A stretch of DNA of 55,525 nt from Segetibacter sp. (GTDB lineage Bacteria > Bacteroidota > Bacteroidia > Chitinophagales > Chitinophagaceae), in NCBI GenBank assembly GCA_028288485.1, contig JAQBNO010000144.1, forward strand, positions 1-55,525, written 5' to 3'. Below the pieces are notes generated by a model. It had not been told where the DNA came from, made no database searches, and worked only from the letters and a program-made list of their open reading frames with translations. Position numbers and translations under genes: made by a program. This document shows, piece by piece, positions 1 through 55,525 of this stretch. Within the stretch, counting starts at the first letter, position 1. Each line of letters begins with the position of its first letter.

Positions 1-1007
1 AACCTGTCGTCTCGTCCCAGTTTTCTCTCCGGGTCGGCTCCGTTTCTTTCAATTGGATCCGGTATGTTTTTATCTCCAAATTTTGCAAATGCTGCATCCA
101 TCCATTCTGCCTGTTCTTCGGGATCAAAACCAAATTCAGCTATTTGAGCAAGACAGGTTTCGGTGGCAGCTTTCCTTGCTGTTTGAAGAATTTCTGCATC
201 ATTTCCTGCCTGCCACAATTGGGTATATCCTTGTTTAGCGCCGAGATAAGTAATAACCGCATTAATACAGTTATAGGTATATATTTTCCTCCTTAATTGA
301 TTACTGAAATTCTCCAGTGGTTTTAATCCATAAACCTGTAGATCTTCTTTAATTTCATCAGCGTTACAAGGAAGTTCAAAAAAATTCTGAGCCCGTATAG
401 TCAAAGGAGATTGATCAGCACTTGCTTCGAGACAAGTTTTGAATATAATCGACTCTGAAAACCCCACCTTTTGTGACAGCCATTTTTCTTTTTCTTCACC
501 CAGGTTCTTTAGTACCCTTTTCTTAAGAAAATGGGCTGCGTTCGTTAAGTTTTCACAGGTGATAATAGTTAGAAGTTGGTCGGGATTTTCTGAATACCTT
601 CTTTGCAGTGCTATAGCCAGATGCTTAGCAAGCTCTTCGAGATTGTTGCCAAAAACAGATGTAAAAACGAGGCGCGTCTTAACCAATTCATCCTGCCATA
701 AGACATCATCAATATGATAAACGCCCGATAATTTTATTGTGCCACTCTTTTCTTCATTGTCTAATACCTGTATATCATATTGCCCTGCCTTTTTTAGATC
801 ACTAACTAATTGGCGGTTTTTATCAATCAATATGATATTATATCCTGCAAGAAATGCGAGATGGGCAGCAAAGCCACGTCCTGTTTTACCTGCACCGAAT
901 ATTAAGGCTGTTTTATTCAAATTATTAGTAGAGGGTTTTATACTTCGAGTTGTTGGAACAGTATCTGGGTATTTTTTGTAGCCGGCTTGTTTTCCCTTAA
1001 TCATCAT
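1..1007 (-). CDS. mannitol-1-phosphate/altronate dehydrogenase family protein (3' end outside window)
   Basis: The frame is open without a stop from 1007 to the left edge (335 codons), so the C-terminus is missing. It should be an NAD(P)-dependent polyol or sugar-acid dehydrogenase acting in the cytoplasm. A Rossmann motif FGAGKTGRGF lies near residue 39, followed by LAGYNIILIDK, as in MtlD. The last visible residues (DPIERNGADPERKLG) match the conserved DxxERxxxxPxRKL segment of the C-terminal domain. The start is doubtful: the ATG-ATG at 1007 lies in a dispersed repeat, and about the first 14 residues are translated repeat. A TTG at 923-921, just before the Rossmann strand, is an alternative start. 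It lies downstream of the zinc alcohol dehydrogenase, and the two may act on the same sugar or polyol. The family is clear; the substrate is not. Confidence 0.8.
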   Translation of the reverse strand, partial: MMIKGKQAGYKKYPDTVPTTRSIKPSTNNLNKTALIFGAGKTGRGFAAHLAFLAGYNIILIDKNRQLVSDLKKAGQYDIQVLDNEEKSGTIKLSGVYHIDDVLWQDELVKTRLVFTSVFGNNLEELAKHLAIALQRRYSENPDQLLTIITCENLTNAAHFLKKRVLKNLGEEKEKWLSQKVGFSESIIFKTCLEASADQSPLTIRAQNFFELPCNADEIKEDLQVYGLKPLENFSNQLRRKIYTYNCINAVITYLGAKQGYTQLWQAGNDAEILQTARKAATETCLAQIAEFGFDPEEQAEWMDAAFAKFGDKNIPDPIERNGADPERKLGRDDR

Positions 1008-1028
1008 CGTTGTGTCACTCACTTGTAC
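968..1028 (-). repeat. dispersed bipartite intergenic element, copy A
   Basis: On the minus strand this copy has GTACAAGTGAG, centre TGACACA and ACGATG (1028-1005), then AAGCCGGCTACAAAAAA about 17 bases later. The ATGATG at the end of box 1 is the apparent start codon of the mannitol-dehydrogenase-family gene, and box 2 is read as QAGYKK. Confidence 0.85.
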
Positions 1029-1091
1029 TTATACAAATTCTATTGGGCCAGCCAAGTTAAAAAACATGGATTGCTGCCCATTGAACAAAAG

Positions 1092-1150
1092 GTAAAAGAG
1101 TGCGACGCAACGATGTAGCTGGTAGAACTTAAGTCGGGCTCATAAATTTG
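1092..1150 (+). repeat. dispersed bipartite intergenic element, copy B
   Basis: Box 1 reads GTAAAAGAG, then the perfect palindrome TGCGACGCA, then ACGATG. Box 2 is AAGTCGGGCTCATAAATTT at 1131. It faces copy A, from which it is 63 bases away. Confidence 0.75.
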
Positions 1151-1157
1151 TGCAGCC

Positions 1158-1302
1158 TTAACCACCCCTGAATAATTTTAAAACAGGTTTTAAAATATTC
1201 TGCCCCTCCTTGAAAAGGAGGAATCTTTTGTTCACGTTTTCCCCTCCCTTTCAAAGATGGGACAGATTTTATTGGGTAGCATTATAAATCAGGGGTGGTT
1301 AA
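1158..1302. repeat. 145-bp inverted-repeat element (MITE-like or bidirectional terminator)
   Basis: Perfect 14-bp ends TTAACCACCCCTGA (1158-1171) and TCAGGGGTGGTTAA (1289-1302) enclose two further inverted arms of the type TCTGyCCC..TTGAAAAGGAGG. The left arm contains its own 7-bp hairpin at 1205-1221 (CCTCCTT, loop GAA). The right end covers the TAA stop of the alcohol dehydrogenase gene. No transposase is nearby and I see no clear target-site duplication. It could equally be a transcription terminator. Confidence 0.6.
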
Positions 1303-2342
1303 ATACGCTCATTTACCAGCACCGCTTTCACTGCTTCCCGGTTTGCAATTTTTTCATAAGCCAACTCCCAATCGTCCAACGCAAACTGGTGTGTAACAAC
1401 CTTTTTAACCTTTTCTTCATTTCGTTCCAAAATACCGATAACTTTTATCCAGGCATCATGAGAAGAGGTGGCGGAAAACACCATTTCGACCACGCTTAGT
1501 ACAGCCGTGTTAAAGGCAAACGGGATAAGAGTGTCGTGGGCGATACCTAAAGCGATAAACTTTCCGCCCTTCCTTAACAAACCCAATCCCTGGTTGATAG
1601 CGTCAGGATCGCCCGAGCAATCTATCACACAATCAGCTCCCCAGCCCGCATTCATTTCTTTCACTCTCGCCGCAATATCCTCTTCGGGCAATAAGACTGC
1701 CCTTGCACCAAGCTCTTCTGATAATTCATAACGGATTTTGTTCCTGCGTGTGCTTGCCACGCAAACTATATTTTTAGCACCGAGATCAACTAAAGTTATT
1801 AAGGTAAACAGGCCAATCGGACCCATTCCATAGATTACCGTAAAGTCATCCTTCTGAAATCTTCCCCGCTCAAGCACGCCGTAAACACATATTGCAAAAG
1901 GTTCTGCTACGGCCGCTACCTGCTTCGACATGTTCATTGGTATTTTATGAACACAATACTCTGGCTGAACAGTGTATTCTGCATAGACACCTTGCGAGAA
2001 CCAACCCGGTGATCTCTTCTTTGGACAAAGTTCATAGTGCCCCGAAAGACAAAGTTTACATTTAAAACAGGCGCTTTTAGCATTTTCGCACACTACCCTA
2101 TCCCCCGGAACAACATTCCGCACAGCACTTCCAACTTCGACTACTGTACCGGTATATTCGTGTCCTACGGTGTTACCGTCCGGCATTGTCATTGTTCCAT
2201 GCAAAACGTGCATATCAGAAGTACATATTCCGATAGCATCAATTTGTATTTTAACGTCAGTGTCGTTTTCCACCTGCGGCACTGTGTCCTCTACCATTTT
2301 AAAATATACGCCATTATCGGAGAACTTTTTGACTGCTTTCAT
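1299..2342 (-). CDS. zinc-dependent alcohol/polyol dehydrogenase (MDR superfamily)
   Basis: A 347-residue medium-chain dehydrogenase expected to oxidise a sugar alcohol or similar secondary alcohol with NAD(P) in the cytoplasm. Catalytic zinc ligands are visible at C40 (GICTSD) and H61-E62 (GHEYTG). Four structural-zinc cysteines lie at C92, C95, C98 and C106. The nucleotide-binding motif GMGPIG is near residue 173. Length is normal for the sorbitol/threonine dehydrogenase group. It follows the MFS transporter gene after 180 bases on the same strand, which suggests uptake and oxidation of one substrate. The stop codon lies inside the inverted repeat at 1289-1302, so the last residues may have been altered by it. 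The exact substrate cannot be read from the sequence. Confidence 0.88.
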   Translation of the reverse strand: MKAVKKFSDNGVYFKMVEDTVPQVENDTDVKIQIDAIGICTSDMHVLHGTMTMPDGNTVGHEYTGTVVEVGSAVRNVVPGDRVVCENAKSACFKCKLCLSGHYELCPKKRSPGWFSQGVYAEYTVQPEYCVHKIPMNMSKQVAAVAEPFAICVYGVLERGRFQKDDFTVIYGMGPIGLFTLITLVDLGAKNIVCVASTRRNKIRYELSEELGARAVLLPEEDIAARVKEMNAGWGADCVIDCSGDPDAINQGLGLLRKGGKFIALGIAHDTLIPFAFNTAVLSVVEMVFSATSSHDAWIKVIGILERNEEKVKKVVTHQFALDDWELAYEKIANREAVKAVLVNERI

Positions 2343-3942: not shown

Positions 3943-4000
3943 GTACAAGTGAGTGACACAACGATGTCGAACAAAAGATCAAAAGCCGGCTACCAAAAAA
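3943..4000 (+). repeat. dispersed bipartite intergenic element, copy C
   Basis: A near-consensus copy: GTACAAGTGAG, centre TGACACA and ACGATG (3943-3966), spacer, then AAAGCCGGCTACCAAAAAA ending at 4000. It lies antisense between the dehydratase stop and the MFS gene start. Confidence 0.9.
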
Positions 4001-5942: not shown

Positions 5943-6002
5943 CTTTTTTGTGGTCCGGGCAGTATTGCTACTATTATTCATCGTTGCCACGCTCGCTTGT
6001 AC
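5943..6002 (-). repeat. dispersed bipartite intergenic element, copy D
   Basis: The minus strand reads GTACAAGCGAG, short centre CGTGGC, AACGATG, then box 2 TGCCCGGACCACAAAAAAG. The centre has little pairing potential. Confidence 0.65.
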
Positions 6003-6121
6003 TGTAACACCTTATTCATCGTGGCAGTTTTTACCTGAGCGTTGTTGAAGGGCAACGTGAGCTTGTCGAAGGTTCGCGCTCTTATACTTTTTGTTTTACA
6101 TGCAGCACAGATGATTTAACT

Positions 6122-7804: not shown

Positions 7805-7894
7805 ATGAAAAACAATTAGCACTAAAGTAAATGAAAAGTGATTATAGTTTATGAAAAACAATTACTATTCAAATAAATAGATGAAAAGTAGATA
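7805..7894. promoter_or_regulatory. four repeated sites upstream of the Fic gene (possible operator)
   Basis: ATGAAAAACAATTA occurs at 7805-7818 and 7851-7864. Close relatives are ATGAAAAGTGATTA at 7831-7844 and ATGAAAAGTAGATA at 7881-7894. All four lie in the same orientation, start 26, 20 and 30 bases apart, and begin 9 bases before the Fic start codon. Binding by a regulator is an inference. Confidence 0.55.
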
Positions 7895-8398
7895 GCATTA
7901 TTGGGGACGGATAGGATAAAGACCGATTTGAAACTTTGGTAGTAATGACGGCACCAAATGTAGATATCTTAAATTCAGTAAGGTTATCGCGTGCGATTAT
8001 GTTTATCCTCGCCTTGCACACGTGCAAATAGTCGCCTGCTGGCTTCATTGTGGCGCAAATGCCGCTGCCACGAAAAACCCATCCGTTTTAACTATGTTCA
8101 ACCATTAACCTAACAGCCAAACAAACATGATCAGTATCAACAACACCATTGCCCGAGTTGAACTGGCCCAAATCGGGCCGTGAGGATTTGTTTATCGCGG
8201 TTTCATAAAAAGCTAAGTCTTAGCCTTCATGAACCGGTAGGGCACTCATCGCAACTTCTGTTCCTCTCGCCAATAACAGTCGCTAAACCATTCAATATCG
8301 CACCGGCTTGAGCAGGTAACCCGGCAAGTTAACCTTATAGTAAAGGAATCTATAATGGATGTAAATCAACTACGTACAAGAAAAGCAAAAATCCAGTA
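7895..8398. other. intergenic stretch without a recognisable gene
   Basis: Short open frames in all directions are broken by stops, and none shows a recognisable domain of useful length. Base composition resembles coding DNA in places (8120-8340), so it may be old gene debris. Confidence 0.5.
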
Positions 8399-8438: not shown

Positions 8439-8511
8439 TGAACTGGCTGGGACTCGAACCCAGGGCCCATACATTAAAAGTGTATTGCTCTACCAACTGA
8501 GCTACCAATTC
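8439..8511 (-). tRNA. trnK: tRNA-Lys (anticodon UUU)
   Basis: The minus strand folds as a full cloverleaf. The acceptor GAATTGG pairs with CCAGTTC, and the D arm is GCTC..GAGC. The anticodon stem is ATACA/TGTAT with loop CTTTTAA, giving anticodon TTT. The T arm is CTGGG, TTCGAGT, CCCAG. The discriminator is A, and CCA is not encoded, as is common in Bacteroidota. Length is 73 nt. It is transcribed from its own promoter and is divergent from the SDR gene. Confidence 0.97.
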
Positions 8512-9620: not shown

Positions 9621-9666
9621 GTACAAGTCAGCGCCGCGACGCGGGGATAATGCCCAATAAATAACC
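9621..9666 (+). repeat. dispersed bipartite intergenic element, copy E (long GC palindrome)
   Basis: GTACAAGTCAG is followed by the palindrome CCGCGACGCGG and then ATAATG, with a weak box 2 (GCCCAATAAATAACC). The centre differs in sequence from other copies but still pairs. Confidence 0.65.
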
Positions 9667-9731
9667 AATGAAGGTTAACAAAAATAAAAACTATTAAAAG
9701 AAATTTTACCTCTGATACAGGAACGTAAAGC

Positions 9732-11649: not shown

Positions 11650-11709
11650 TTTTTTTTGGGGACGAGCAGTTGTTTTTTATAGCGTCATCGTTGTGTCACT
11701 CACTTGTAC
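11650..11709 (-). repeat. dispersed bipartite intergenic element, copy F
   Basis: The minus strand has GTACAAGTGAG, TGACACA and ACGATG (11709-11686), then CTGCTCGTCCCCAAAAAAAA ending against the acyltransferase stop codon. Confidence 0.88.
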
Positions 11710-14142: not shown

Positions 14143-14230
14143 CCAGCAAAAAGGCGGTAGTACCCGCGACAGTTCATGGAAAACCATTTCACACAGCTAC
14201 ACCCCGATAAATTGTTCAAATTATTTTCCG

Positions 14231-14283
14231 GTACAAGTGAGTGCCACTTGTCTGAACGCATTTTCGTCCCGCGGGCAACGATG
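14231..14283 (+). repeat. dispersed element, copy G (expanded centre)
   Basis: GTACAAGTGAG and ACGATG flank a 36-base centre that starts TGCC and ends GGGCA, so the ends still pair. A second pairing ACAAGTG/CACTTGT is possible. No box 2 is visible. Confidence 0.6.
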
Positions 14284-14321
14284 CTTACTTAATAGAATTA
14301 CAGGAGATAGCTTCAAAAAAA

Positions 14322-14370: not shown

Positions 14371-16659
14371 TTACCTGTTGTCGTTAGAAAAAGAATACGG
14401 AAAAGCTGCAGGAGTTGTGCCCCTGGCTTTACCAGGAGTTGCACTCATCATATAATTCAATGTGCTTCCTTTGAACAGGTCAAAGTGGCTAACCCAATTT
14501 TTATCATAGCTCTTCCCATTGAGTTGAAGTGATTGAACATACAGGTTTGTGTTGCTATTTGCAGGAGCATTAATAAGTATTTTGTTGCCGTTTTCAAGCG
14601 ATATCGTCATCTTTTTAAATAATGGAGTTCCTAATACATACTGATCGGTGGCAGGGCAGACTGGATAAAATCCCATGGCAGAAAAAATATACCAGGCAGA
14701 AGTTTGGCCATTGTCTTCATCGCCGCAATAGCCATCCGGAGTAGGTTTATATAGCTGGTCGGTTACCCTGCGAATCCAGTATTGCGATTTCCACGGTTGT
14801 CCTGCGTAGTTATATAAATAGGTCATGTGCTGAATGGGCTGGTTGCCGTGCGCATACTGCCCCATATTCATGATCTGCATCTCGCGGATCTCGTGTATAA
14901 CAGACCGGTAATAGCTTTCGTCGAAAACCGGTGGCATGATAAAAACAGAGTCCAGCATTTTTATGAACATTTCATTTCCGCCCATCAGCTTTTTCAGGCC
15001 TTCAATATCGTGAAATACGCTCCAGCTATAATGCCAGCTATTGCCTTCGGTAAAAGCATCGCCCCATTTGAATGGATTAAAGGGTGATTGAAACGAGCCA
15101 TCCTGGTTTTTGCCCCGCATCAATTTCGTTTCAGGATCAAAGAGGTTGCGAAAGTTCTGGCTTCGCTTTGCATACAAATCAATTTCTTCTTTTGGCCGAT
15201 TTAAAGCTTTAGCCAATTTGTAAATAGTGAAATCGTCGTATGCATACTCAAGTGTACGGGCTGCATTTTCATTGATCTTTACATCATACGGCACATATCC
15301 GAGCTTGTTATAATACTCAACACCAGCACGACCAACAGCGGTTAACGGGCCGGCATTATTGGCACCATGAAGCAACGCTTCATACAAGGTATTAATATCA
15401 TAACCTCTTAATCCTTTCAGATAAGCATCAGCAACAACTGAAGCTGAGTTATTGCCTACCATTGTATTTGCTAAATTGGGGCTTGACCACTCGGGCAACC
15501 AGCCGCTTTCTTTATAATCGTTGATCAAACCTTCCTGCATTTCTTTATTAATGGAGGGAGCAATTAAATTCAACAAAGGATATAGTGCACGGAATGTGTC
15601 CCAGAAACCGGTGCCTCCATACAAATAGCCAGGTAATATTTTTTGATTATAAGGGCTCCAGTGAACGATCTGCCCTTTTGAATTTACTTCATATAGTTTT
15701 TGAGGAAACTGGAGGGTACGATACAAACAGGAGTAGAACGTTCTAACCTGATCAATGGTGCCACCTTCCACCATAATCTTGCGAAGTTGTTTATTCCAGC
15801 TGTTTTTCGCTTTTTGCATCGTTACATCAAAAGCGTCCTTTGAAAGTTCATTCTTCAGGTTGAATTCCGCCTGCTCTATACTTATAAATGAGGAAGCAAC
15901 TTGTAAATGGACCTTCTCCCCTTTTCGGGTTTTAAAACCAATTAAAGCGCCGGCATGATCGGCAGTAACTTCAAGAGAGTCGCCTGCAATTTTACCATTA
16001 GTCCAGGTATTTGACTTCGTAAACGGCTTGTCGATATAAATGACAAAATAGTTCTTGAAGTCTTTCACCCTGTTGGCGTTTCGGGTTGAGTAACCAACGA
16101 TCTTTCTTTCGCCAGGAATAACCTTAACGTACGATCCCCTGTCAAAAGCATCGATTACGATAAAAGAGCTATCGGTTTCGGGAAAGGTGAAGCGGAATTG
16201 CGCGGCTCTTTCAGTTGGTGTTATCTCGGTGGTTACATCTGCATCGGCGAGGTAAACGCTATAATAATACGGCTTCGATACTTCTGCTTTGTGAGAGAAC
16301 CAGCTAGCCCTGTCATCCTCAGTAAGCTTGACCTGTTTGGTTACCGGCATAATGGAAAATTGCCCGTAATCGTTCATCCACGGTGAGGGCTGGTGCGTTT
16401 GTTTAAAGCCGCGAATTTTATCCGACGCATACGTGTATGCCCAGCCGTTACCCATCTTCCCTGTTTGCGGAGTCCAAAAGTTCATTCCCCAGGGAACTGC
16501 AATAGCCGGATAAGTATTGCCATTAGATAAACTTGGTTTTGAGTCTGTGCCCATTAAAGGATTAACCCATTCAACAGGATCCGTAACTTTTGAAACAATT
16601 TGGGCAGCGCAGTAGAGATTCGAAAATAAGATACTGGCAAACAAAAGTTTTTTTATCAT
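14371..16659 (-). CDS. GH92 alpha-mannosidase
   Basis: A 762-residue secreted enzyme with an N-terminal signal peptide (MIKKLLFASILFSNLYCAAQ), so it is periplasmic or surface-attached. GH92 enzymes are calcium-dependent exo-alpha-mannosidases cleaving alpha-1,2, 1,3, 1,4 or 1,6 links. Signatures are VNPLMGTDS and NTYPAIAVPWGMN at the start, GTGFWDTFRALYPL in the middle, and GDEDNGQTSAWYIFSAMGF near residue 665. The last holds the general acid region. Length is typical. The next gene on the strand is a GH125 alpha-1,6-mannosidase, which together would trim branched alpha-mannans or N-glycan-like structures. Linkage specificity cannot be read. Confidence 0.95.
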   Translation of the reverse strand: MIKKLLFASILFSNLYCAAQIVSKVTDPVEWVNPLMGTDSKPSLSNGNTYPAIAVPWGMNFWTPQTGKMGNGWAYTYASDKIRGFKQTHQPSPWMNDYGQFSIMPVTKQVKLTEDDRASWFSHKAEVSKPYYYSVYLADADVTTEITPTERAAQFRFTFPETDSSFIVIDAFDRGSYVKVIPGERKIVGYSTRNANRVKDFKNYFVIYIDKPFTKSNTWTNGKIAGDSLEVTADHAGALIGFKTRKGEKVHLQVASSFISIEQAEFNLKNELSKDAFDVTMQKAKNSWNKQLRKIMVEGGTIDQVRTFYSCLYRTLQFPQKLYEVNSKGQIVHWSPYNQKILPGYLYGGTGFWDTFRALYPLLNLIAPSINKEMQEGLINDYKESGWLPEWSSPNLANTMVGNNSASVVADAYLKGLRGYDINTLYEALLHGANNAGPLTAVGRAGVEYYNKLGYVPYDVKINENAARTLEYAYDDFTIYKLAKALNRPKEEIDLYAKRSQNFRNLFDPETKLMRGKNQDGSFQSPFNPFKWGDAFTEGNSWHYSWSVFHDIEGLKKLMGGNEMFIKMLDSVFIMPPVFDESYYRSVIHEIREMQIMNMGQYAHGNQPIQHMTYLYNYAGQPWKSQYWIRRVTDQLYKPTPDGYCGDEDNGQTSAWYIFSAMGFYPVCPATDQYVLGTPLFKKMTISLENGNKILINAPANSNTNLYVQSLQLNGKSYDKNWVSHFDLFKGSTLNYMMSATPGKARGTTPAAFPYSFSNDNR

Positions 16660-16768: not shown

Positions 16769-16826
16769 CATTTTTTGGTACCGGCATGAGTTTCCATAGC
16801 ATCATCGTTGCTACGCTCAGTTCAAC
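16769..16826 (-). repeat. dispersed bipartite element, copy H (diverged box 1)
   Basis: The minus strand reads GTTGAACTGAG, CGTAGC, AACGATG, then box 2 ATGCCGGTACCAAAAAATG. Box 2 is strong; box 1 has diverged. It overlaps the stop codon of the coding remnant at 16817. Confidence 0.6.
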
Positions 16827-17030: not shown

Positions 17031-17088
17031 GTACAAGTGTGCGACGCAACGATGTTGAAAATAACACTTCCGCTGGGCTCATAAAAAT
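17031..17088 (+). repeat. dispersed bipartite intergenic element, copy I
   Basis: GTACAAGTG, perfect palindrome TGCGACGCA, ACGATG (17031-17054), then CTGGGCTCATAAAAATC. It shares the second centre type with copies B, J, P and R. Confidence 0.85.
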
Positions 17089-20709: not shown

Positions 20710-21312
20710 ATGGACTTATTGCCTTTAGTTTGTTATTGTACTCCTGCTTAAAACCTGTCGGTGCTTTATTAACCTTATTGTTTCTCAGCGGAGTAACAAA
20801 AATAAGCTAAGGAATAATCCGTCTATTCTGTTAATAACAAAAGTTCCGGCTTTCTCTATAACACAGGAACAAACACCTCTCAGGTGTAAAAATTTACGAC
20901 AAGGTCTATGACGCTGAAAACATGATTTTAGAGATAATCATTAGGTGTAATAATGCCTGGGGTGGCTGGGTAAAGACAACCTGTGAAATGTTTTGTTGTA
21001 TGTTCGCATGCGGCTTTTCATCAATGCTTCGTTTTGAAACAATTACCTGAAAGTTATTGGGACCGGACAGTAGAATGAACGGGTGGGCTTCCGTTCCTGC
21101 CATGGGCGGACTCTTGTACTGTTAGTTCATCATTCAATACCGTATACTTAGGTATTATTTACCCTCGTGAAAAGTCGACGGCCAGGCAGGCAGAATTGTA
21201 TATGTTTGTTTTACTGATCGATGTTTTTTACTTTTTTTTTGATAAAAAAGGAACCCCGCCGAACGTAACTTCGGTACAGGCCGGCATTGAATAAAGCTAA
21301 TTTTAGGTTATC
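20710..21312. other. intergenic stretch with element copy T
   Basis: Apart from the element at 21073-21119 and a weak palindrome AATACC..GGTATT (21136-21156), no gene is seen. Open frames here begin inside the element and show no domain. Confidence 0.5.
21073..21119 (-). repeat. dispersed element, copy T (hairpin-swapped centre)
   Basis: The minus strand reads GTACAAGAG, then the hairpin TCCGCC, CAT, GGCAGGA (one bulged A), then ACGG and box 2 AAGCCCACCCGTT. The flanks are conserved while the centre is unrelated to other copies. Confidence 0.65.
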
Positions 21313-22667: not shown

Positions 22668-22727
22668 GCACAAGAGTGCGACGCAACAATGATTAATAGA
22701 AGTAATGAAGTTTGGTTCAAAAAAAAT
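22668..22727 (+). repeat. dispersed bipartite intergenic element, copy J
   Basis: GCACAAGAG, TGCGACGCA, ACAATG (22668-22691), then AAGTTTGGTTCAAAAAAAAT. The first base pair of box 1 has changed. Confidence 0.78.
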
Positions 22728-23353: not shown

Positions 23354-26300
23354 ATGAAAAAACGTTTACGCTCTTTCCGTTCCACTCATGCAGTTCCTTT
23401 TTTCTCTTCCGGGTTGCGACAGAAAGCAACCGACCTTCCTGACAGAACTATTTTTAACCCTTCCGGCTCTTTTATAACTTATATAAAAACAACCTTGTTT
23501 TTATTAGGTTTAATTTCTGCATTCAATACCGGTGCTCAATGCCCGGTCTCTACTGCAGAACTTACACCTACAGCAACCAACGATATGGTTGCAACTTGTT
23601 TTGGTAGCCAGGTAACAATACCATTTGCCCAGCTATTGAGTAATGATGCAGGACCGAGCGGAAAATCGATTTCGATTATATCCTCTACAAAACCTACTTC
23701 GGGAACAATCAGTCAATCCGGCACGGCTTATATATATACCCCTGCACCGGGCTTTTCGGGCACCGCTACTTTTACCTATTCCATAAAACAGAATGATGGT
23801 TTTTATTTCTTCAACGGGCACTACTACCAGATCATCGAAAATAGTGCAACCTGGGATAAAGCCAAAAAAGACGCTGAGAAGGCTGTTTATAATGGCAGGA
23901 AAGGTTATCTAATTACCATCTCTACACCAGAAGAAAACGAATTTATACGCTCTAACATTCGTGGGGATATTTGGATCGGGGCAAGTGACATTGACAAAGA
24001 AGGTACCTGGAAATGGGAAACCGGTCCTGAAGGCATTGCTACTTCAGGCGGTTCAGTTATCACCTTCTCTAACTGGGCTGCAGGTCAACCGGATAATGGA
24101 GGCGTCGATCCTGCGTCTAATCCAACCAACGCTTCACGGTCGGGGGAACACTACGCCACTTCAGGTAATGGACTGCGGGCAGACAATCCTTTAAATAACA
24201 GCAACCCTTATATAATAGAGTTTGGAGATATGGAAACAGGTTGTCTTCCTGTTGTAAATGCAACTGCCACTGTAACAATTACTGTAGGCTCCCCTATTAC
24301 GCTCAATACTACTCAAACCAATACTTGCCCTGGCGGAAGTAGCGGAAGCGTAGTCCTTACTCCAGCGGGAGGTAAGGCGCCTTATAGCTACGATTATTTA
24401 AAATATTCCTTTAACGCCAGTCTATTAGACGCAAATCTTTTTGATCTTACAAACGGCAATTTTTCTGTAAACGGAGATTTGCAGGGAAGCGCGGTTGCCA
24501 ATGCAAATACCGACTTTGACAACTCTATTGTTACAGATAAATTATATGCCGATAATGGGTACCTGAGGAGTGAAGCTTCTTTTAAGATGTCAGCAGATGC
24601 AACGGTTCTTTTTGGCTTAACAACTTATGTACCTCGTGCTTTAGGAGCTATGCCTATCAGTTTTGGCTTTAGCCAGGGCGCTTTAACTTATACGATTAAC
24701 GGTTCTACTTATTCTTCCGGAAGCTATGTTGCTGATACATGGTACGATCTTAAAATCGAAAAGAACGGACAGCAGGTAAAATTCTACGTGAAAAAAAGCA
24801 GTGAGCTAAACTGGAGTTTGACAGGATCGAAAACATACAACGGTAAAGCATCTTCCTTTAGGTTAGCTGCCCAGTACTTTGACGATTTTTCTTCAACACG
24901 GGTATTTAACACGAAGAACTGGGTTATAAGTTACAATCCACCTTTGACAGGTTTAAGTGCAGGATTTTATACTTATACAGTTACAGACTCAATTGGCTGT
25001 AGCGGTAACGCCTTTGTAACTATATCAGACGACGTGCCTTTTATGGCAAGTGCAGTTTCACACAATACTTCAGCTACTGCTGTATGTGATGGTTCTGTTA
25101 CCATTTCAAGTAGCAGTCCGTTAGCTTATATTGCAAACAATACCTTCAACAAAGATTTCGCTTCGGGTATCGAGCCCGGTGTATTTGACATTCTTAACGG
25201 CGATTTTTCATCGGCAGGATACTTACAGGCAAGCGCCATTACGTTAAGTACCGGCTGGGCTAACTCAATTACCACAAAAGCTGCGTTTGCAGACAAAGGA
25301 TTTTTACGGTACCAGGGATCGTTCATGTTCGACAACAATTCGCGGGTTTCTTTTGGCTTCTCCACTGCCGTAAGAAGTATTTCAAATTTGGGCGACTTGC
25401 CTATTTCTTTTTATTATAATAACGGCAAACTGAATTACTTTATTAACAACAAGGGTGTTGAAATAGGAAAGTATACTCCTAACACCTGGTTTGATTTTAA
25501 AATTGAAAAAAGAGGTACTGATGTTTTATTCTTTACCAAAGCAGAAAATGAAGACTGGATACTGGCAGGTAAAGAAAAGTACACGGGTTCTGAAGTATCA
25601 TTTAAAGCCGCAGCGCAGTATTACGGAGTTGCAGGCAGTAACGGGGGATTTAACAGCAGAAACTGGAAAGTTGATGTAACGGGTGATATTTCAGGCTTAT
25701 GTACCGGCGATTATTCTTACCAGCTTACTTCAGTTGCTGGTTGCACGTCTGATGTAAGTTTTAGTATTTACGAGACCCTGGTTGTGGAAGGAATATCATT
25801 TAACGCAAAATGTTTTGGAACTGCGACAGGCAAAATTATTTTGAATGCCAAGGGCGGTAAAGCACCTTATACTTATTCAATTAATAATGGTGTTACCTAT
25901 TTGGCAACTGATGTATTTGAAAATATAGAAGCTGGAACGTACCAACTGGTCGTAAAAGACAGCAGAGGTAATGTATCGTTGCCAACAGTGGTGGTAATAA
26001 GTCAACCGCCAGCAGTGGTTGCCAACATTTCTGCCAATGGTCCTTTATCTATATGCCAGGGTGCTTCTGTAAATCTTACAGCTACAAACGGCAGTTCTTA
26101 CTTATGGAGTAACGGCGCTACAACTTCTTCTATCCTGGTTAGCCAAAGCGACAATTATACCGTTAAGGTTACTGATTCTACAGGATGTTCGGCCACCTCT
26201 GCAATAACCACAGTAATAGTTACTCCTATTCCTGTACCTGTTGTAACATCAAACGGAAGTTTACACGTTTGTGCTGGCTCTTCACTTGATTTAAATGCTT

Positions 26301-28201
26301 CCGGAGGTACTTCTTACCTGTGGAACACTGGTGCAACTTCCTCTAAAATAACAGTAAATACCGGCGGCATTTACTCAGTAACGGCTACTAATGGCAATGG
26401 TTGTTCTGCTACTTCTGCCCCGGTAACAGTTAAATCCAGTCCAACACCTATTGCAGGAATTACTGCGGGTGGTCCTTTAACTTTCTGTTCAGGGTCTTCT
26501 GTTAACCTGACAGCAACAGGTGGCCTCTCCTACCTTTGGAATACAGGTGCAACAGGCGCCGATTTACAAGCAACTGCTTCAGGAAGTTACTCTGTAAAAG
26601 TTACCGACGCCAATGGATGTTCAGCAACATCGGCACCTGTTACAGTTACTGCGAATCCTGCACCCGTGGCTGCAATAACTCCATCCGGTTCTACCTTAAT
26701 ATGCCAGGGTTCCTCAGTAAACCTGGTTGCGTCGGGCGGTGGTACCTACACATGGAGTAATGGTGCTAAAACATCGAGCATAACCGCGTCTTCAAACGGC
26801 AGTTATTCAGTAATAGTAACAGGTATAAACGGCTGTTCTGCAACTTCGGCTCCTGTTACGGTAAGTGTTAATCCTATCCCGGTTGTCTCAATAACCGCAA
26901 CTACCAGCGGTTACTTGTGTAAAGGTGTTGTTCTAACTGCAACGAGCACAAGCAGCGTTAAAAGTTATGCCTGGAGTGACGGTGCTGTTTCTCAAACGCT
27001 CAGCCTTACAAGTGCAAAAGCCGATGGCACATATACGGTAAATATCACTGATTATAATGGCTGTAAAAACACTACGCCTGCGTCGTACCTATTCAATAAG
27101 CAAAATATGCTGGAAGCCTACAGCATCCTGGGTCTTACTTCGGTAAACCTTGGTACATCAACAGTTGTAGCAACAGGAAGTGTGGGAGTAACCGGAAATT
27201 CAGGAAGTATCACATTAGGTAAAAGTTCTTCTGTGGCATCTACAGGTGCTTTTGTTAAAGCAAAAACCATTAACGTAACCACACCCGTAAGTGCACCAAC
27301 ACAAGTAAAGGCAGCAGCAACTGTAATACTGCCGGCAATGCAAACGAATACTACCGGCAGCGCAAGCAGTTACAGTACTGCGACCATTTCGTCTTCTACG
27401 ACTTCAACTAGTAATTACAGAAACCTGACCATTAAAGGAGCAATAAATGTTACACTGAGCGGAAATATATTTGGTACAATAACAGTTGAGCAAGGCGCTA
27501 CTGTTACCTTCACAAATGGCAGTATAAACATCGATCAGTTAATTGTTGGCAATAGTAACAGCAGTAAAGTCACCGCTTCTTCACCATTAACTACTCTACG
27601 CTTCCCTGCAAATGGTACGGTTAAAATTAGCACATCGGCAAACATATACGGCCGTAGTCGCATAAACGCTGAGGAAAATAAGGTCACCTTCTTCTGCGGC
27701 GACGCAAGTTCAGATGCAGAGTCGTTTAATGTAAACGGCCTGGATATAATAGTAGGCGGAACTATTTACATGCCTGTAGGCACGCTGGCAGTAACAACTA
27801 CAAGTACCACCACTGCCAGTTATATGAAGGGTTTATTTATTGCCGATAAGATCACAAGCACAGGTGCTAAAATCATTTGGCAAGGTTCTACCTGCGGAAC
27901 AGGAGCAGCGGCACGACCAGCAAATGAAGCGATCGTTGAAAGATCAACGACCGAAACGCTTAGAGTTACTGTAATGCCAAACCCATCAAGTTCCGACTAC
28001 GTGTTCGTTATTAGCAGCCCTTCGAAGGCACCTGTTAGTATTCGTATTATCGATGCAAGCGGAAGACTGTTAGAAAATATAACATCAGTCTCCCCTTCTG
28101 CTCCGGTAAGAGTTGGCAAAAATCTTGCTTCAGGAAATTACTATGCAATGATCGTCCAGGAAGGTCACTCAGTTACAACAAAACTGGTTAAAGTAAAATA
28201 A
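23354..28201 (+). CDS. large modular adhesin with C-type lectin domain, Ig-like repeats and T9SS sorting domain
   Basis: A 1615-residue surface protein. After an extended signal region (to residue about 61, ending NTGAQ) come an Ig-like module and a C-type lectin-like domain at about 150-296 (IWIGASDIDKEGTWKWETG). Then come two related jelly-roll modules at about 350-525 and 595-775 and SprB-like segments (GGKAPYSYDY, GGKAPYTYSI). Five Ig-like repeats have an exact 72-residue period, with their cysteines at 901, 973, 1045, 1117 and 1189. A Ser/Thr-rich stretch, a beta-solenoid-like region and a type A sorting domain (about 1539-1615, MPNPSSSDYVFVI) follow. It should be exported by the type IX system and bind glycans. 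It is followed by a strong terminator and stands alone. Confidence 0.92.
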   Translation: MKKRLRSFRSTHAVPFFSSGLRQKATDLPDRTIFNPSGSFITYIKTTLFLLGLISAFNTGAQCPVSTAELTPTATNDMVATCFGSQVTIPFAQLLSNDAGPSGKSISIISSTKPTSGTISQSGTAYIYTPAPGFSGTATFTYSIKQNDGFYFFNGHYYQIIENSATWDKAKKDAEKAVYNGRKGYLITISTPEENEFIRSNIRGDIWIGASDIDKEGTWKWETGPEGIATSGGSVITFSNWAAGQPDNGGVDPASNPTNASRSGEHYATSGNGLRADNPLNNSNPYIIEFGDMETGCLPVVNATATVTITVGSPITLNTTQTNTCPGGSSGSVVLTPAGGKAPYSYDYLKYSFNASLLDANLFDLTNGNFSVNGDLQGSAVANANTDFDNSIVTDKLYADNGYLRSEASFKMSADATVLFGLTTYVPRALGAMPISFGFSQGALTYTINGSTYSSGSYVADTWYDLKIEKNGQQVKFYVKKSSELNWSLTGSKTYNGKASSFRLAAQYFDDFSSTRVFNTKNWVISYNPPLTGLSAGFYTYTVTDSIGCSGNAFVTISDDVPFMASAVSHNTSATAVCDGSVTISSSSPLAYIANNTFNKDFASGIEPGVFDILNGDFSSAGYLQASAITLSTGWANSITTKAAFADKGFLRYQGSFMFDNNSRVSFGFSTAVRSISNLGDLPISFYYNNGKLNYFINNKGVEIGKYTPNTWFDFKIEKRGTDVLFFTKAENEDWILAGKEKYTGSEVSFKAAAQYYGVAGSNGGFNSRNWKVDVTGDISGLCTGDYSYQLTSVAGCTSDVSFSIYETLVVEGISFNAKCFGTATGKIILNAKGGKAPYTYSINNGVTYLATDVFENIEAGTYQLVVKDSRGNVSLPTVVVISQPPAVVANISANGPLSICQGASVNLTATNGSSYLWSNGATTSSILVSQSDNYTVKVTDSTGCSATSAITTVIVTPIPVPVVTSNGSLHVCAGSSLDLNASGGTSYLWNTGATSSKITVNTGGIYSVTATNGNGCSATSAPVTVKSSPTPIAGITAGGPLTFCSGSSVNLTATGGLSYLWNTGATGADLQATASGSYSVKVTDANGCSATSAPVTVTANPAPVAAITPSGSTLICQGSSVNLVASGGGTYTWSNGAKTSSITASSNGSYSVIVTGINGCSATSAPVTVSVNPIPVVSITATTSGYLCKGVVLTATSTSSVKSYAWSDGAVSQTLSLTSAKADGTYTVNITDYNGCKNTTPASYLFNKQNMLEAYSILGLTSVNLGTSTVVATGSVGVTGNSGSITLGKSSSVASTGAFVKAKTINVTTPVSAPTQVKAAATVILPAMQTNTTGSASSYSTATISSSTTSTSNYRNLTIKGAINVTLSGNIFGTITVEQGATVTFTNGSINIDQLIVGNSNSSKVTASSPLTTLRFPANGTVKISTSANIYGRSRINAEENKVTFFCGDASSDAESFNVNGLDIIVGGTIYMPVGTLAVTTTSTTTASYMKGLFIADKITSTGAKIIWQGSTCGTGAAARPANEAIVERSTTETLRVTVMPNPSSSDYVFVISSPSKAPVSIRIIDASGRLLENITSVSPSAPVRVGKNLASGNYYAMIVQEGHSVTTKLVKVK

Positions 28202-29858: not shown

Positions 29859-29962
29859 CCTTCACTTAACTTCTTCCTCCAGGGGAGAGATAACGGCAGA
29901 ACCAGGATTATGAAATGATGTGATTAGGAGGAAGTCTTATCAACTTCTATAACATCATTCAA

Positions 29963-29994
29963 CATTGTCCCCCGGCGGCGGGGCTCACTTGTAC
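29963..29994 (-). repeat. dispersed element, copy K (GC hairpin centre, box 1 only)
   Basis: The minus strand has GTACAAGTGAG, hairpin CCCCG-CCGC-CGGGG, then GACAATG. The centre type matches copy Q. No box 2 is visible. Confidence 0.7.
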
Positions 29995-30345: not shown

Positions 30346-30401
30346 GTACAAGTGAGTGACACAACGATGTTGAAAAAAGAAAAAAAGCCCGTCCCAAAAG
30401 A
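30346..30401 (+). repeat. dispersed bipartite intergenic element, copy L
   Basis: GTACAAGTGAG, TGACACA, ACGATG (30346-30369), then AAGCCCGTCCCAAAAG. Box 2 forms one arm of the ROK-gene terminator hairpin. Confidence 0.88.
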
Positions 30402-30412
30402 AACAGGCTTTT
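30383..30412 (-). terminator. hairpin terminator of the ROK gene
   Basis: The minus strand folds AAAAGCCTGT with ACGGGCTTTT (one U-G pair), then a T-run. It begins 26 bases after the ROK stop and overlaps box 2 of element L. Confidence 0.7.
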
Positions 30413-30437
30413 AATTTATATAGATTTTATTTGAAAA

Positions 30438-31403
30438 CTACATTTCCCAAACCAACGCGCTGGCACCTAAAATTGCTGCATCGGCTTCTTTGAGTTCGCT
30501 AAAAATCAGTTCTACTTTGTTTTGAAAGATAGGTAAGAGGTTTTTCTCCATATGCTCCCTTGTTGGCTTCATAATTAAATCACCGGCTTTAATTACCCCG
30601 CCAAAAAGAATGATCGCCTTTGGCGACGAGAACATAATAAAGTTAGCCAACGCTTCGCCGAGCACTTCGCCCGTAAAACGGTAAACTTCCTTCGCAATAT
30701 TATCGCCCTTCATGGCACATTCGTACACTATCTTCGAATTGATGGCTTCGGGCTTATAATCCCTCAATAAGCTTGGTTCATCAGAAGTTTCTAATAGTTC
30801 CTTAGCAGTAAGCGTAATGCCGGTAGCCGACGCGTAAGCCTCCAGGGAACCTTTAAGACCGGTCGACCAATGCTCTCTTCCATTATGACGAATGATGGTA
30901 TGACCCAGTTCGCCTGCAAATCCGTCTTCGCCATAAATCATGTGTCCGTTTGCAACAACACCACTGCCCACCCCTGTGCCTAAGGTGATCACTATAAAAT
31001 TTTTCATGCCTCTTGCTGCACCATACATCATTTCGCCCATGGCCGCTGCATTGGCGTCATTTGTCAGGAAGCAAGGCAAACCGAACTTCTCCGATACCAA
31101 CCTGGCAAGCGGCACAATTTCGCGCCATGGCAAGTTCGGGGCATAATCAATAGTACCTGTATAAATGTTGCCATTTGGTGCCCCAACACCAATACCCTTT
31201 ATTTTTTCAATGCCAACAACGTCAATTGTAGGCTTTAGTTTATCATAAAGGTCATTCACAAAATCCTCGACTTTGTTATACTCATTAGTACGAATATCGC
31301 TTCCGCTGTATGTAATTTCTCCCCGATGGTTTACAAAACCGTATTTGGTACCGGTACCGCCAATATCTATACCAATAGCATATTGATTGGATTCTGTATT
31401 CAT
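30438..31403 (-). CDS. ROK family sugar kinase lacking the zinc-site cysteines
   Basis: A 321-residue cytoplasmic kinase of the ROK family, probably phosphorylating glucose or another hexose. The phosphate-binding GIDIGGTGTKYG is at residues 11-22. The catalytic aspartate is D116 in TNDANAAAMGE, and VITLGTGVGSGVV follows at 138-150. H168 of the GELGH motif is present. However, the family pattern CxCGxxGCxE reads WSTGLKGSLE (179-188) here, so all three cysteine ligands are replaced. A zinc site is therefore unlikely. The rest of the fold is normal in length. The gene stands alone with element copies on both sides. Confidence 0.9.
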   Translation of the reverse strand: MNTESNQYAIGIDIGGTGTKYGFVNHRGEITYSGSDIRTNEYNKVEDFVNDLYDKLKPTIDVVGIEKIKGIGVGAPNGNIYTGTIDYAPNLPWREIVPLARLVSEKFGLPCFLTNDANAAAMGEMMYGAARGMKNFIVITLGTGVGSGVVANGHMIYGEDGFAGELGHTIIRHNGREHWSTGLKGSLEAYASATGITLTAKELLETSDEPSLLRDYKPEAINSKIVYECAMKGDNIAKEVYRFTGEVLGEALANFIMFSSPKAIILFGGVIKAGDLIMKPTREHMEKNLLPIFQNKVELIFSELKEADAAILGASALVWEM

Positions 31404-31924
31404 ATGTTTGATTTCTGTTAGAACTGGTTGTTCAAAGCCGGGTAAAGACTAAAGCAACAAAACTATTAAAAATAGTACAATGGCTTAGTGTAGAAACAGC
31501 GGCTTCAAAATGCTGCAATATAAAGTAACATTTACTATTTCTTTTGGCAACGTTCAGGCATTCAGCCCAGGTCTTTCAAAGAAAACTCTTAATGGAGAAT
31601 TTTTTTTGTACTTAACCAGGTAATACTACCCGGCTTTTGTTGTGTCACTCACTTGTACTTTCGCTTTAAATGCGGCTTTTTGGCTAGTTATCGCTGTTTA
31701 ATTATAGTTCCGCGATCGCGCTTTTTTATATTATCCGCAAATTATAGAAAAGTAATGTTACTCGTTCTCGCACTGTCCTCACCGGAAAGCGAATAAAATA
31801 AACGACGCAATTATTTATCTTAATAACTTCTACAACTGATAAAGCTTCTGATAAAACCCAAAATTTAAGCCGTTTTTGTAGGTTTTAAAATTCAATATAC
31901 TTCAGCCATGTTTGAAACAAATAA
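31404..31924. other. intergenic stretch upstream of the ROK gene
   Basis: It contains element copy M and a 10-bp palindrome CGCGATCGCG followed by C and six T (31711-31727). No gene is seen. It ends where the GH127 remnant begins. Confidence 0.5.
31617..31658 (-). repeat. dispersed element, copy M (shortened spacer)
   Basis: The minus strand has GTACAAGTGAG and TGACACAAC, then directly AAAAGCCGGGTAGTATTACC. The ACGATG end and the spacer are missing, as if lost by an internal deletion. Confidence 0.7.
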
Positions 31925-34074: not shown

Positions 34075-34384
34075 ATGGCAAACAGAATTTTAAGCATTAA
34101 AGGTTGAAGTTACGCAACCTGGCAATTTAATCACTTTCGCGAAAGCAAAAGCTGCAGAAGTGTTGAATAGAAAATTTCAATGGATCTGGTTAGTGGCAGC
34201 ATTAAATAAAAAAAGATGCAGCGATATTGTGAAAGTAGAAGTGAGTGACACAACGATGATGCCATGAAAAGCTTGGCTCGTACCGAAAAAAAACCAAAAG
34301 AAATTTCAATTTTCTAGCTGGAAGTCATATCTTAAGATGTAGAAGTTGCTTATTTTGCTTTCTTACAATCTTAAACCAGACCCA
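34075..34384. other. divergent intergenic region with element copy N
   Basis: Between the Gfo/Idh/MocA and amidohydrolase starts. Besides the element, a near-match -7 box TTATTTTG lies about 25 bases before the amidohydrolase ATG. Confidence 0.45.
34235..34293 (+). repeat. dispersed bipartite intergenic element, copy N
   Basis: GTAGAAGTGAG, TGACACA, ACGATGATG (from 34235), then AGCTTGGCTCGTACCGAAAAA. The first tetranucleotide is GTAG instead of GTAC. Confidence 0.87.
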
Positions 34385-37948: not shown

Positions 37949-38011
37949 TTGAATACCTTTCCCCGCATGGCATCCTTTCTTTAAATCACTTTTTGAAGGG
38001 ATTTAGAGGGT

Positions 38012-38061
38012 GGGGTACCGGCTTTTGTATTAAACATTGTTCCCATGAAAGGAACGGGTAC
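38012..38061 (-). repeat. degenerate dispersed element, copy V
   Basis: The minus strand begins GTACCCG, then the hairpin TTCC..GGAA, then CAATG. It ends with a strong box 2 AAAAGCCGGTACCCC. Order and length match the element family, but box 1 differs at several bases. Confidence 0.5.
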
Positions 38062-38134
38062 GGTCGCTTACCGGTACTGTTTGTAGTTGCTTCGGCAGAA
38101 ATGCTTTATGCTACCCGGTTGTCGCAGACAGTAA

Positions 38135-42345: not shown

Positions 42346-42407
42346 GGAGTTTTTTGGTAACCACCGATATCTCCTGGTGGATCTCCGGTTGTGTCACTCA
42401 CTTCTAC
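42346..42407 (-). repeat. dispersed bipartite intergenic element, copy O
   Basis: The minus strand has GTAGAAGTGAG, TGACACAAC (42407-42388), then box 2 GGTTACCAAAAAACTCC. As in copy N the first bases are GTAG. Confidence 0.8.
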
Positions 42408-45843: not shown

Positions 45844-46361
45844 GAAGCAGTTGCAGGCTATTTAGGTTACACGTTACAATCCACCCGGGAGTTGACAAGC
45901 CCGGATTAAAATCAAACTACCTATCAACGTGACTTTTAATGCAGAAACCGGTTTTAGCGTACAAGTGTGCGACGCAACGGAAGCTATACATGCCTACCAA
46001 AGCTAAGTACCCACCTCCCTTGTATTTCATTTTAGTTTGCAAACTCTTTAAACTTCCATATCAAAGGCTCTCGAATGATCCCTTCCTATAGTTTCTTTCC
46101 CTTTTTTCGTTTTTACCTTTTCTATTGGTAACACGACTATGCCTTATCACCCGAAGCCTCCGGCTCAAAACCTCCAATGAAAGATTTATCGAACCCTGCA
46201 TCCCGTTATGCTAAACCAAATACCATAGAGAAATGAACAGGTGGCAGCGTTTTTTTACTACTAAAGAATTAGCGTGGGGAAACTCCCGCTCATCAGGTAA
46301 AATAAATTTTATAAGGTAGCCATGAATTATCTAAATTAGACAAAAATCATAATCAGAACAG
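45844..46361. other. intergenic region with element copy P
   Basis: Apart from the element at 45959 nothing specific is seen. It contains the presumed promoter of the AraC gene, but no clean TAnnTTTG box was found. Confidence 0.5.
45959..46004 (+). repeat. dispersed element, copy P
   Basis: GTACAAGTG, TGCGACGCA, ACGG (from 45959), then a weakened box 2 TGCCTACCAAAGC. Confidence 0.75.
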
Positions 46362-49835: not shown

Positions 49836-49837
49836 GT

Positions 49838-50152: not shown

Positions 50153-50220
50153 GTAAAAGTGAGCCCCGCTGCGGCGGGGACGATATTGAAAATAGTTTCA
50201 ATAGTTGGCTAACAAAAAAT
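50153..50220 (+). repeat. dispersed element, copy Q (GC hairpin centre)
   Basis: GTAAAAGTGAG, hairpin CCCCGC-TGCG-GCGGGG, ACGAT, then box 2 AGTTGGCTAACAAAAAA at 50203. It lies between the large-subunit stump and the intact large-subunit gene. Confidence 0.8.
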
Positions 50221-53550: not shown

Positions 53551-53603
53551 GGCTGAATAGATACTTAATATCTGTTACTTATGATTGTTTTACCCACATC
53601 AAA

Positions 53604-53634: not shown

Positions 53635-53742
53635 CACATCTTTTGTAAAATCGCTTGTATACCGCGACATTCATTTAATCTTTGAAGTGAATTCAATAGT
53701 AAAAGCTGCAACATTATTCAAATTACATAACATAACGAAACT

Positions 53743-55149: not shown

Positions 55150-55207
55150 AACCTTGATTAATTGGATTTGTATTGTGATTAGGATGAAATCGCATATTCT
55201 GTTATAA

Positions 55208-55236
55208 AAAAAGGGCCGTTCATCGCGGTCCTTTTT
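55208..55236 (+). terminator. hairpin terminator of lpdA
   Basis: AAAAAGGGCCG (55208-55218) pairs with CGGTCCTTTTT (55226-55236) with one G-U pair, then GTTTTTG. It begins about 60 bases after the stop. Confidence 0.85.
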
Positions 55237-55260
55237 GTTTTTGTATAAGTTTTGAAGAAG

Positions 55261-55317
55261 AATTGGTACCATAATTTAGGATAATTATTAAGCTTTTGTT
55301 GCGTCGCACTCTTGTAC
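55261..55317 (-). repeat. dispersed element, copy R
   Basis: The minus strand has GTACAAGAG, TGCGACGCA, ACAA (from 55317), then a faint box 2 ATGGTACCAATT. The family length is kept. Confidence 0.7.
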
Positions 55318-55498
55318 TGATAAAGCAACGGCTCATAAGCGAACCCCAGGTTGCGTGGGCAATGGTGATCAATACCCGGCTTTGAAGATTTTTCCAGCAC
55401 CAAAGTGCAAAAAAATGCATTATAATATCCCACCAGCTGCTTTATGCGAATGTAAATTAAGAGAATAGCAGGATAATTTGTTGCCTGAAAAACAGCTT

Positions 55499-55525
55499 GT
55501 ACAAGTGAGTGACACAACAGGCGCC
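55499..55525 (+). repeat. dispersed element, copy S (cut by the window edge)
   Basis: GTACAAGTGAG, TGACACAAC, then AGGCGCC at the end of the window. Box 2, if present, lies outside. The rest of 55318-55498 shows no gene. Confidence 0.75.

Follow-up and report, generated by a model that had tools for sequence, protein, structure and literature searches.

A bipartite, polar intergenic element of Chitinophagaceae with alternating orientation along the chromosome

The window analysed here is a stretch of 55,525 nt from Segetibacter sp. (contig JAQBNO010000144.1). It contains about 20 copies of a bipartite intergenic element of about 57 bp. Neighbouring copies of this element mostly point in opposite directions, one end of the element mostly faces the nearer gene end, and copies are kept at orthologous places between species. 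The placement, polarity, alternation and constraint of the copies, their confinement to one family among the genomes searched, and a shortage of ordinary terminators at the stops they abut were all observed. It is possible, at somewhat less than an even chance, that the copies serve as conserved boundary sites with a direction, placed where gene blocks end and perhaps terminating transcription. Repeats dispersed in bacterial genomes are commonly regarded as parasitic or as clutter; for this element an orientation rule holds over kilobases and depends neither on gene strand nor on how similar the copies are. In some soil bacteria of a single family, these short directional intergenic signs number many hundreds and form a regular layout. 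Either a directional signal is maintained where gene blocks end in these bacteria, or repeats are sorted by orientation through some general force, and both alternatives are directly testable in cultured soil species. Neither a description of this element family nor an account of kilobase-scale alternation of a dispersed bacterial repeat was found in open-licence full texts.

The family was detected in the window by several approaches. The word GTACAAGTGAG with up to two mismatches occurs 25 times, compared with 10.7 +/- 3.2 in shuffles. The covariance model R1 was trained on 80 copies from the genome of the window (G000), G001 and G034. With a covariance model that had ten window copies among its 80 training copies, 15 copies in the window reached E<0.001 and 18 reached E<0.25. 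A hidden Markov model (HMM) seeded with 14 window copies added 14230-14320 (E 9e-5) and a cut copy at 55499-55518 (E 0.0036). A sequence-only reading of the window had described a dispersed bipartite intergenic family of about 20 copies, and the profile, the covariance model and the shuffles bear this out; the abundance of the boxes over shuffled sequence and their fixed distance were both checked, and the family stands. Among its 21 positions, 17 are firm, three (9621, 21073 and 29963) are weak (E 0.017-0.24), and 38012 is element-like by eye only. Its length of 58-62 bp is close to the 56-59 bp measured in 76 copies aligning end to end (selected as <64 bp). Both orientations occur between genes as it stated, with 126 of 129 copies outside predicted genes. 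Box 2 as it was written did not hold up as a motif by itself: the 3 matches (shuffle mean 0.94) are reached by 9 of 100 shuffles. The enrichment is weak because only G-Y-Y-n-G-NNN-C-(A/C)-AAAAA is conserved.

Those 129 copies were found with the refined profile at E<=0.01 in 455 kb of G000, 122 of them below 1e-3; nothing below E 1.9 was found in a dinucleotide shuffle of the same sequence. In the whole of G000 (6.375 Mb, 220 contigs), the main box 1 form with up to three mismatches occurs 418 times, and the reversed pattern does not occur. The 229 copies in 851 kb of this genome (0.269/kb) extrapolate to about 1,700 genome-wide. The density is 0.405/kb in G001, and G172 has 212 copies in 400 kb. 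The dense genomes have about one to nearly three thousand sites each by extrapolation from density, the richest giving at least 38 R1 matches. The main form is present in all nine same-genus relatives searched (2 to 724 copies). R1 matches 88 of the 147 Chitinophagaceae genomes sampled, in 65 of 100 genera. A phylum-wide draw gave matches in 7 of 296 genomes, all seven within Chitinophagaceae, and exact box 1 was absent from viral contigs. Orientation and placement were analysed in an enlarged set (11 genomes, 1.89 Mb, 502 copies; one match in shuffled sequence) and in G172, a held-out genome of a different genus that was not used in profile building. The combined set contains 714 copies from 12 genomes, with three genera in depth. 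The shuffle controls of the 455-kb search, the 11-genome set and G172 used one shuffle each.

Box 1 consists of about 24 nt, typically GTACAAGTGAGTGACACAACGATG, and is followed by a free AT-rich spacer and then by the conserved part of box 2, which gives a total of about 57 bp. The box 1 subtypes include GTACAAGTGAGTGACACAACGATG, GTACAAGAGTGCGACGCAACGATG, GTACAAGCGAGCGTGGCAACGATG, GTTGAACTGAGCGTAGCAACGATG and TGAACGGAATGCGACGCAACGATG. All of the subtypes keep G-(C/T)-N-N-N-(G/A)-C, in a frame after which AAC(G/A)ATG mostly follows; the starts vary (GTAC, GTAG, GTTG, TGAA and others). Box 1 contains a mini-hairpin of 2-3 bp with one invariant G-C pair and one covarying C-G/T-A pair. Across 80 aligned copies, G-C occupies pair 12-18 without exception; at pair 13-17, 49 copies have C-G and the other 31 have T-A, so that no copy breaks it. 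The covariation score was matched by none of 500 shuffles and by no slid version, and it is partly post hoc, as the three-pair mini-hairpin was named after viewing the subtypes and counted later. A longer GC-rich hairpin was seen by eye at box 1 in a few copies (window 9621, 29994 and 50153). A regular-expression search for such extended copies was too loose (723 matches in real and 356 in shuffled sequence, mean hairpin z -0.17); the 13 copies added by the extended-hairpin search form 11 opposite and 4 alike neighbour pairs within 4 kb. A known structured RNA was rejected after an Rfam scan, in which the sole match overlapping an element (30379-30456) scored 24.6 bits against a threshold of 55 (E 2.3). 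Regarding the features of miniature inverted-repeat transposable elements, the aligned unit shows no long inverted ends, and the empty sites are too diverged for a target duplication to be read.

The alternation of orientation was missed by the sequence-only reading and is new here, as are the polarity and the old, constrained sites. Among neighbours less than 4 kb apart in the combined set, 455 of 515 are opposite. In the 11-genome set, 283 pairs are opposite and 39 alike below 4 kb, and 93 opposite and 53 alike above it; in G172, 172 are opposite and 21 alike below 4 kb. The strand order of the 21 window positions, with the doubtful one counted, is - + + - + - + - + - + - + - + - - + + - +. 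Within 4 kb, copies two apart are alike in 184 of 237 cases and copies three apart are opposite in 52 of 63; therefore the order extends past pairs. Neighbours within 4 kb that have at least one gene between them show the same preference (317 opposite, 57 alike, p 8e-45). For successive intergenic regions in the 11-genome set, 17 direct nearest neighbours were found and 76.4 expected, and 117 inverted ones were found and 55.9 expected; the corresponding values for G172 are 10 and 39.9, and 46 and 18.0. These expectations use present frequencies, which a purge of direct pairs would lower, and the inverted excess alone is not decisive. Strictly codirectional gene strings also alternate (57 opposite, 14 same), and strand switches inside bracketed blocks occur at background level (75 of 242 gene junctions). 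Thus, gene orientation is not the cause of the alternation.

Pairs closer than 300 bp comprise 15 head-to-head, 2 tail-to-tail and 0 head-to-tail pairs, and no shared inner DNA was seen by eye in the 15 head-to-head ones. Gene-free +- pairs number 2, compared with 16 -+ pairs. Replication strand was rejected as an explanation of orientation, with no relation between GC skew and element orientation visible in 21 stretches viewed without a statistical test. In G001 and G172, the two members of a close head-to-head pair resemble each other less than random copies do (mean longest shared run 9.2 vs 12.7 and 12.1); in G034 they resemble each other more (16.4 vs 12.1), and in G000 about as much as random copies.

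The element is polar with respect to genes, whose positions were taken from a simple codon-usage caller and not a standard annotator. The A-run end (box 2) faces the nearer gene end in 551 of 691 copies overall. This holds in the 11-genome set (379/484, leaving out the 8 of 502 copies in genes and 10 at stretch ends), in G172 (172/207, leaving out 5 of 212 in genes) and in the 455-kb set of G000 (100/120, with 6 dropped at stretch ends). The polarity is present at stops and at starts alike; the element is mostly sense-oriented upstream of starts and antisense after stops. Nearly all copies of the 11-genome set (494 of 502) lie outside predicted genes, and 70 of the 331 copies with the 3' side toward a stop have their end 0-10 nt away from that stop. 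The A-run was also considered as an insertion target, and this was rejected: A6/T6 runs outside the elements show weak polarity (80:54 at stops, 89:75 at starts), and A-run conservation is about equal in start-facing and stop-facing copies, so the A-run is part of the element.

Comparison of G005 and G009, which share 80% DNA identity in the fetched loci, shows that the sites are retained. Twenty of 38 G005 copies are anchored on both sides; one lies at a rearrangement, and 19 are testable. Sixteen of these 19 have a G009 partner, all in the same orientation, and all 16 anchored G009 copies (of 36) have a G005 partner. Identity in 14 of the 16 pairs amounts to 90% for box 1 (302/336) and 77% for box 2 (141/182), compared with 70% for the spacer (170/242) and 68% (284/420) and 71% (274/386) for the flanks. 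The pairs require detection in both species, which is a bias; only 3 sites are missing, all of them alignment gaps. One of the sites that G009 lacks occurs in G000, G005 and G008, and its absence therefore looks like a loss. When G000 was compared more widely with its relatives, in a partly redundant set, the relative also had an element at 24 of 55 alignment edges where G000 has one, 22 of the 24 facing the same way, and had one at 8 of 65 edges where G000 has none; many sites are therefore unshared at greater distance. Several orthologous sites keep the same place and orientation and have a different subtype in each species. The copies are old and constrained, and do not look like repeats that are still moving. 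The breakpoint of a rearrangement that separates G005 from G009, near 22,980 of G005:C3 (L198 ~2982), coincides with an element.

The ends of transcription units were examined by searching for terminator-like hairpins within 130 nt of stops, in intergenic regions of at least 130 bp. Such hairpins were found at 8 of 99 stops abutted (<20 nt) by a site, compared with 97 of 391 element-free regions and about 4% in shuffles; beyond the element at abutted stops they were found in 10 of 99. This scarcity points to abutting elements that can themselves serve to end the transcription unit. Together with the same polarity at starts, it leads to a reading of the sites as one-way boundaries. A putative factor would recognise box 1 together with box 2, and the bound site would form a boundary in one direction, most likely for RNA polymerase leaving a gene block on either strand. 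At start-side sites, antisense transcripts would run into the outward face. Since successive sites mostly point in opposite directions, a stretch of one to a few genes tends to carry inverted sites at both ends. The sequence-only reading had also mentioned a conserved RNA or processing signal; of this, a conserved processing or boundary signal fits better, possibly with action through RNA.

Several observations weigh against such a boundary. Hairpins are also rather scarce where the element of the region does not face the stop (34/184), and a hairpin lies between the stop and a site 30-130 nt away in 69 of 187 cases; the terminator scarcity is therefore not specific to abutting sites alone. 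The element does not have the layout of an intrinsic terminator: its gene strand has the T-run first and the mini-hairpin last, no U-run follows the tiny hairpin, and a GC hairpin with a U-run up to the far end of the element occurs in 5 of 99 abutting elements. The third hairpin pair, 11-19, does not form in 47 of 80 copies. When 11 copies were folded singly, just 1 did clearly better than its own shuffles, and an RNAalifold consensus of element copies predicted no pairs; therefore the hairpin is tiny. The enrichment of bracketed blocks is matched by that of blocks flanked by the 5' ends (LR 65, RL 52 vs 28 each). The blocks are not transcription units, as strand switches inside brackets are at background. 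Under a simple one-way terminator, direct neighbours, which leave blocks half-bracketed, would have no obvious cost, and the avoidance of such neighbours is unexplained by the boundary model alone. The density also ranges from 0 to 0.405/kb between species of the genus in the stretches of the 11-genome set, and G007 has 2 main-form copies, so the function cannot be essential. No protein that would read the site came to light, although no search aimed at one was made. A related reading is that one bacterial protein reads the 57-bp sites and partitions the chromosome into gene-sized segments with inverted ends, so that orientation and not sequence identity would be selected; this is unlikely in our estimation. 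The CTCF-type convergent boundary sites of animal chromosomes are directional, and form inverted pairs at segment ends and divergent pairs at junctions. The element is alike in both kinds of pairs, as an analogy only, and differs in being bacterial, in its gene-sized spacing, and in having no known protein or loop.

The sequence-only reading had also suggested repetitive extragenic palindromic (REP) sequences moved by a REP-associated tyrosine transposase (RAYT). In this explanation, a RAYT-type HUH transposase would have spread the element on single-stranded hairpins, favouring positions 5' of A-runs; the transposase would since have been lost or would act in trans, leaving an old fixed population. 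This is somewhat unlikely. The form of the element agrees with it: the copies are extragenic, head-to-head (15 of 17 close pairs) and more than 1,000 in dense genomes by extrapolation, with a covarying mini-hairpin. Short intergenic hairpin repeats with high copy number and head-to-head pairs are described for REPs, bacterial interspersed mosaic elements (BIMEs) and RAYTs in PMC2817692, PMC3733652 and PMC6006769, and the head-to-head predominance resembles that of the REPs treated in PMC3733652. RAYT-type genes (E<=1e-10) are present in 92 of 147 family genomes, with fragments in G000, and are modestly associated with element abundance: by hand count, the type occurs in 22 of 28 genomes with at least 30 R1 matches and in 30 of 59 that have none. 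In the very dense genome G001, the truncated RAYT-type gene L128 lies between two inverted copies. However, the defining link to RAYT genes was not found. None of 11 open near-complete RAYT-type genes (L123-L127, L130, L131, L136, L139, L140 and L151; flanks of up to 1.5 kb) is flanked by copies on both sides. An element at E<0.01 was found near L140 only, to one side of it at a distance of about 1 kb, and a weak one (E 0.042) lies 0.4 kb from L123; the HMM, built from other genomes, may miss subtypes. Moreover, 6 of the 28 element-rich genomes lack the RAYT type, and the element-rich G033 has no match to PF01797 (Y1). The association was rejected as a defining link on the basis of these genes and of G033. 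No general GTAG/GTGG or CGTC tag was found, and the stem is 2-3 bp in most copies, compared with 5-13 bp. The sites common to species, the conservation of box 1 above its flanks, the absence of any recent insertion among the sites compared, and a missing site that looks like a loss also argue against this explanation, which leaves the kilobase-scale alternation unexplained. BIME clusters, as those three papers describe them, alternate internally, whereas the element alternates over kilobases with genes in between; compared with the REPs described there, it is a 57-bp bipartite unit, with no regular RAYT flanking and with conservation at orthologous sites.

G000 itself contains two Y1 transposase genes (PF01797, E<=0.001), one intact and one broken. 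The YILNQESHH motif of the intact gene places it, by the table in PMC6006769, in a subclass without REPs. A RAYT-type family with YIHNNP-like motifs is present in the relatives, and the 14 matches to this type in G000 are fragments or contain stops. Clusters of these fragments lie on G000 contigs C96, C152, C211, C58, C16 and C74 (loci L129, L138 and L147).

The alternation might also be the result of instability only. Direct repeats would recombine or slip and delete the genes between them, and inverted ones would survive, with any function or none; we regard this as quite unlikely. The avoidance does fade with distance, since neighbours with the same orientation number 14 of 204 at less than 2.4 kb, 25 of 118 between 2.4 and 4 kb, and 53 of 146 at greater distances. 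However, the exact run shared by neighbours has a median length of only 9-10 nt, and the direct pairs that survive show no greater divergence than inverted ones (p 0.74). Direct pairs that enclose a third copy are common: among copies two apart and within 4 kb, 184 have the same and 53 the opposite orientation. Blocks of one copy and an inverted pair hold a direct pair and are not clearly depleted (18 vs 20.5; in G172, 17 vs 21.6). These undepleted blocks and the short homology therefore weigh against a purge of direct repeats. Fold-back of the inverted pair could protect such blocks, in a model weakened by the same observations. DNA uptake sequences, which are recognised in transformation, would accumulate by uptake bias, keep their place, shift in dialect and serve as terminators at gene ends. 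We know of no report of competence in Chitinophagaceae, for which no search was made. The copy number, in-place conservation, dialect-like subtypes at orthologous sites, inverted close pairs and gene-end association would all suit uptake sequences, which we nevertheless consider improbable, a shade more so than instability. Uptake signals form orientation-biased close pairs within terminators (PMC1852404) and are biased to gene termini (PMC2346458). The uptake sequences of Neisseria and Pasteurellaceae, as treated in these two papers and in PMC2397512, resemble the element in their many dispersed sites, orientation-biased pairs, gene-end bias and terminator use. However, the element has 57 model positions with a spacer, compared with the about 9-11 nt given in PMC1852404, and only 8 of 502 copies lie in predicted genes, whereas PMC2346458 concerns uptake sequences inside genes. 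Relative to the sequences described in these sources, the element is much longer, two-part, almost wholly intergenic and polar toward the gene, with kilobase alternation. Finally, each + ... - pair might be the terminal inverted repeats of a mobile cassette that brought the genes in. The pairs do enclose genes with ends that are alike from outside, and gene-free +- pairs are rare (2 vs 16 -+). However, the copies at opposite ends of a bracket resemble each other no more than random copies do, and the occupancy of the two ends is not significantly correlated (odds ratio 1.4-2.0, p 0.35 and 0.06); cassette ends are accordingly very improbable. Paired cassette ends and copying between neighbours were both rejected, as neighbour similarity is about random.

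The window copies comprise several subtypes, for which covariance-model E values are given unless stated otherwise. The main subtype was found at 3943..3999 (+, E 2e-12), 11653..11709 (-, E 2e-11), 30346..30401 (+, E 1e-11) and, with a GTAG start, 34235..34290 (+, E 4e-9). The copy at 11653..11709 is also supported by orthology, with copies at the orthologous place in G001, G003, G005, G008 and G009. Two head-to-head pairs are formed by 972..1028 (-, GTACAAGTGAGTGACACAACGATG subtype, E 9e-12) with 1092..1147 (+, AGTGCGACGC subtype, E 4e-9), and by 16771..16826 (-, GTTGAACTGAGCGTAGC subtype, E 3e-9) with 17031..17086 (+, TGCGACGCA subtype, E 6e-11). Further TGCGACGCA copies are located at 22668..22724 (+, E 5e-11), 45959..46014 (+, E 9e-4) and 55260..55317 (-, E 9e-6). 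The copy at 31602..31658 (-, E 5e-7) has GTACAAGTGAGTGACACAAC and then AAAAG replacing GATG; that at 42351..42407 (-, E 1e-5) belongs to a GTAGAAG...ACAACCGGAG subtype; and that at 21054..21119 (-, E 0.017) is diverged. Long GC hairpins in box 1 occur at 50153..50218 (+, E 4e-5) and at 29935..29994 (-, E 0.23 only), which has the exact GTACAAGTGAG start. The copy at 9621..9684 (+, E 0.24 only), with a longer GC hairpin in box 1, is supported by orthology, since its orthologous site has GTGACAC-type copies in G005 and G008. The copies at 14231..14320 (+, HMM E 9e-5) and 55499..55525 (+, HMM E 0.0036) have a long insertion in box 1 and are cut by the window end, respectively. The doubtful copy at 38010..38078 (-) has approximate limits, with an element-like appearance by eye and no model match.

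The copy at 5946..6002 (-, E 5e-10) belongs to the GCGTGGC subtype and has an upstream extension. Several GCGTGGC/GCGTAGC copies have this extra upstream part, a CCCTTCGG...CAGGGT hairpin, with a partner such as TGCCACGCT, complementary to box 1, about 25-30 nt away. They are located at window 5946-6070 (-), L045 ~15357-15470 (-), L053 ~7836-7950 (-) and L061 3374-3491 (-). The extension looks as if a second repeat were fused to the element. Intergenic word-like repeats of ATTCAATG / TTCAAT units were seen at L003 ~1480-1600 and in L027, together with one CATTCCGAGG...GGAATC palindrome (L003/L027) that looks like another repeat family. The window also contains a tRNA gene at 8439-8511 (-). Three 77-nt direct repeats at 26051-26775 lie inside a 1615-codon open frame (23354-28201), and are probably repeated domains of a large protein.

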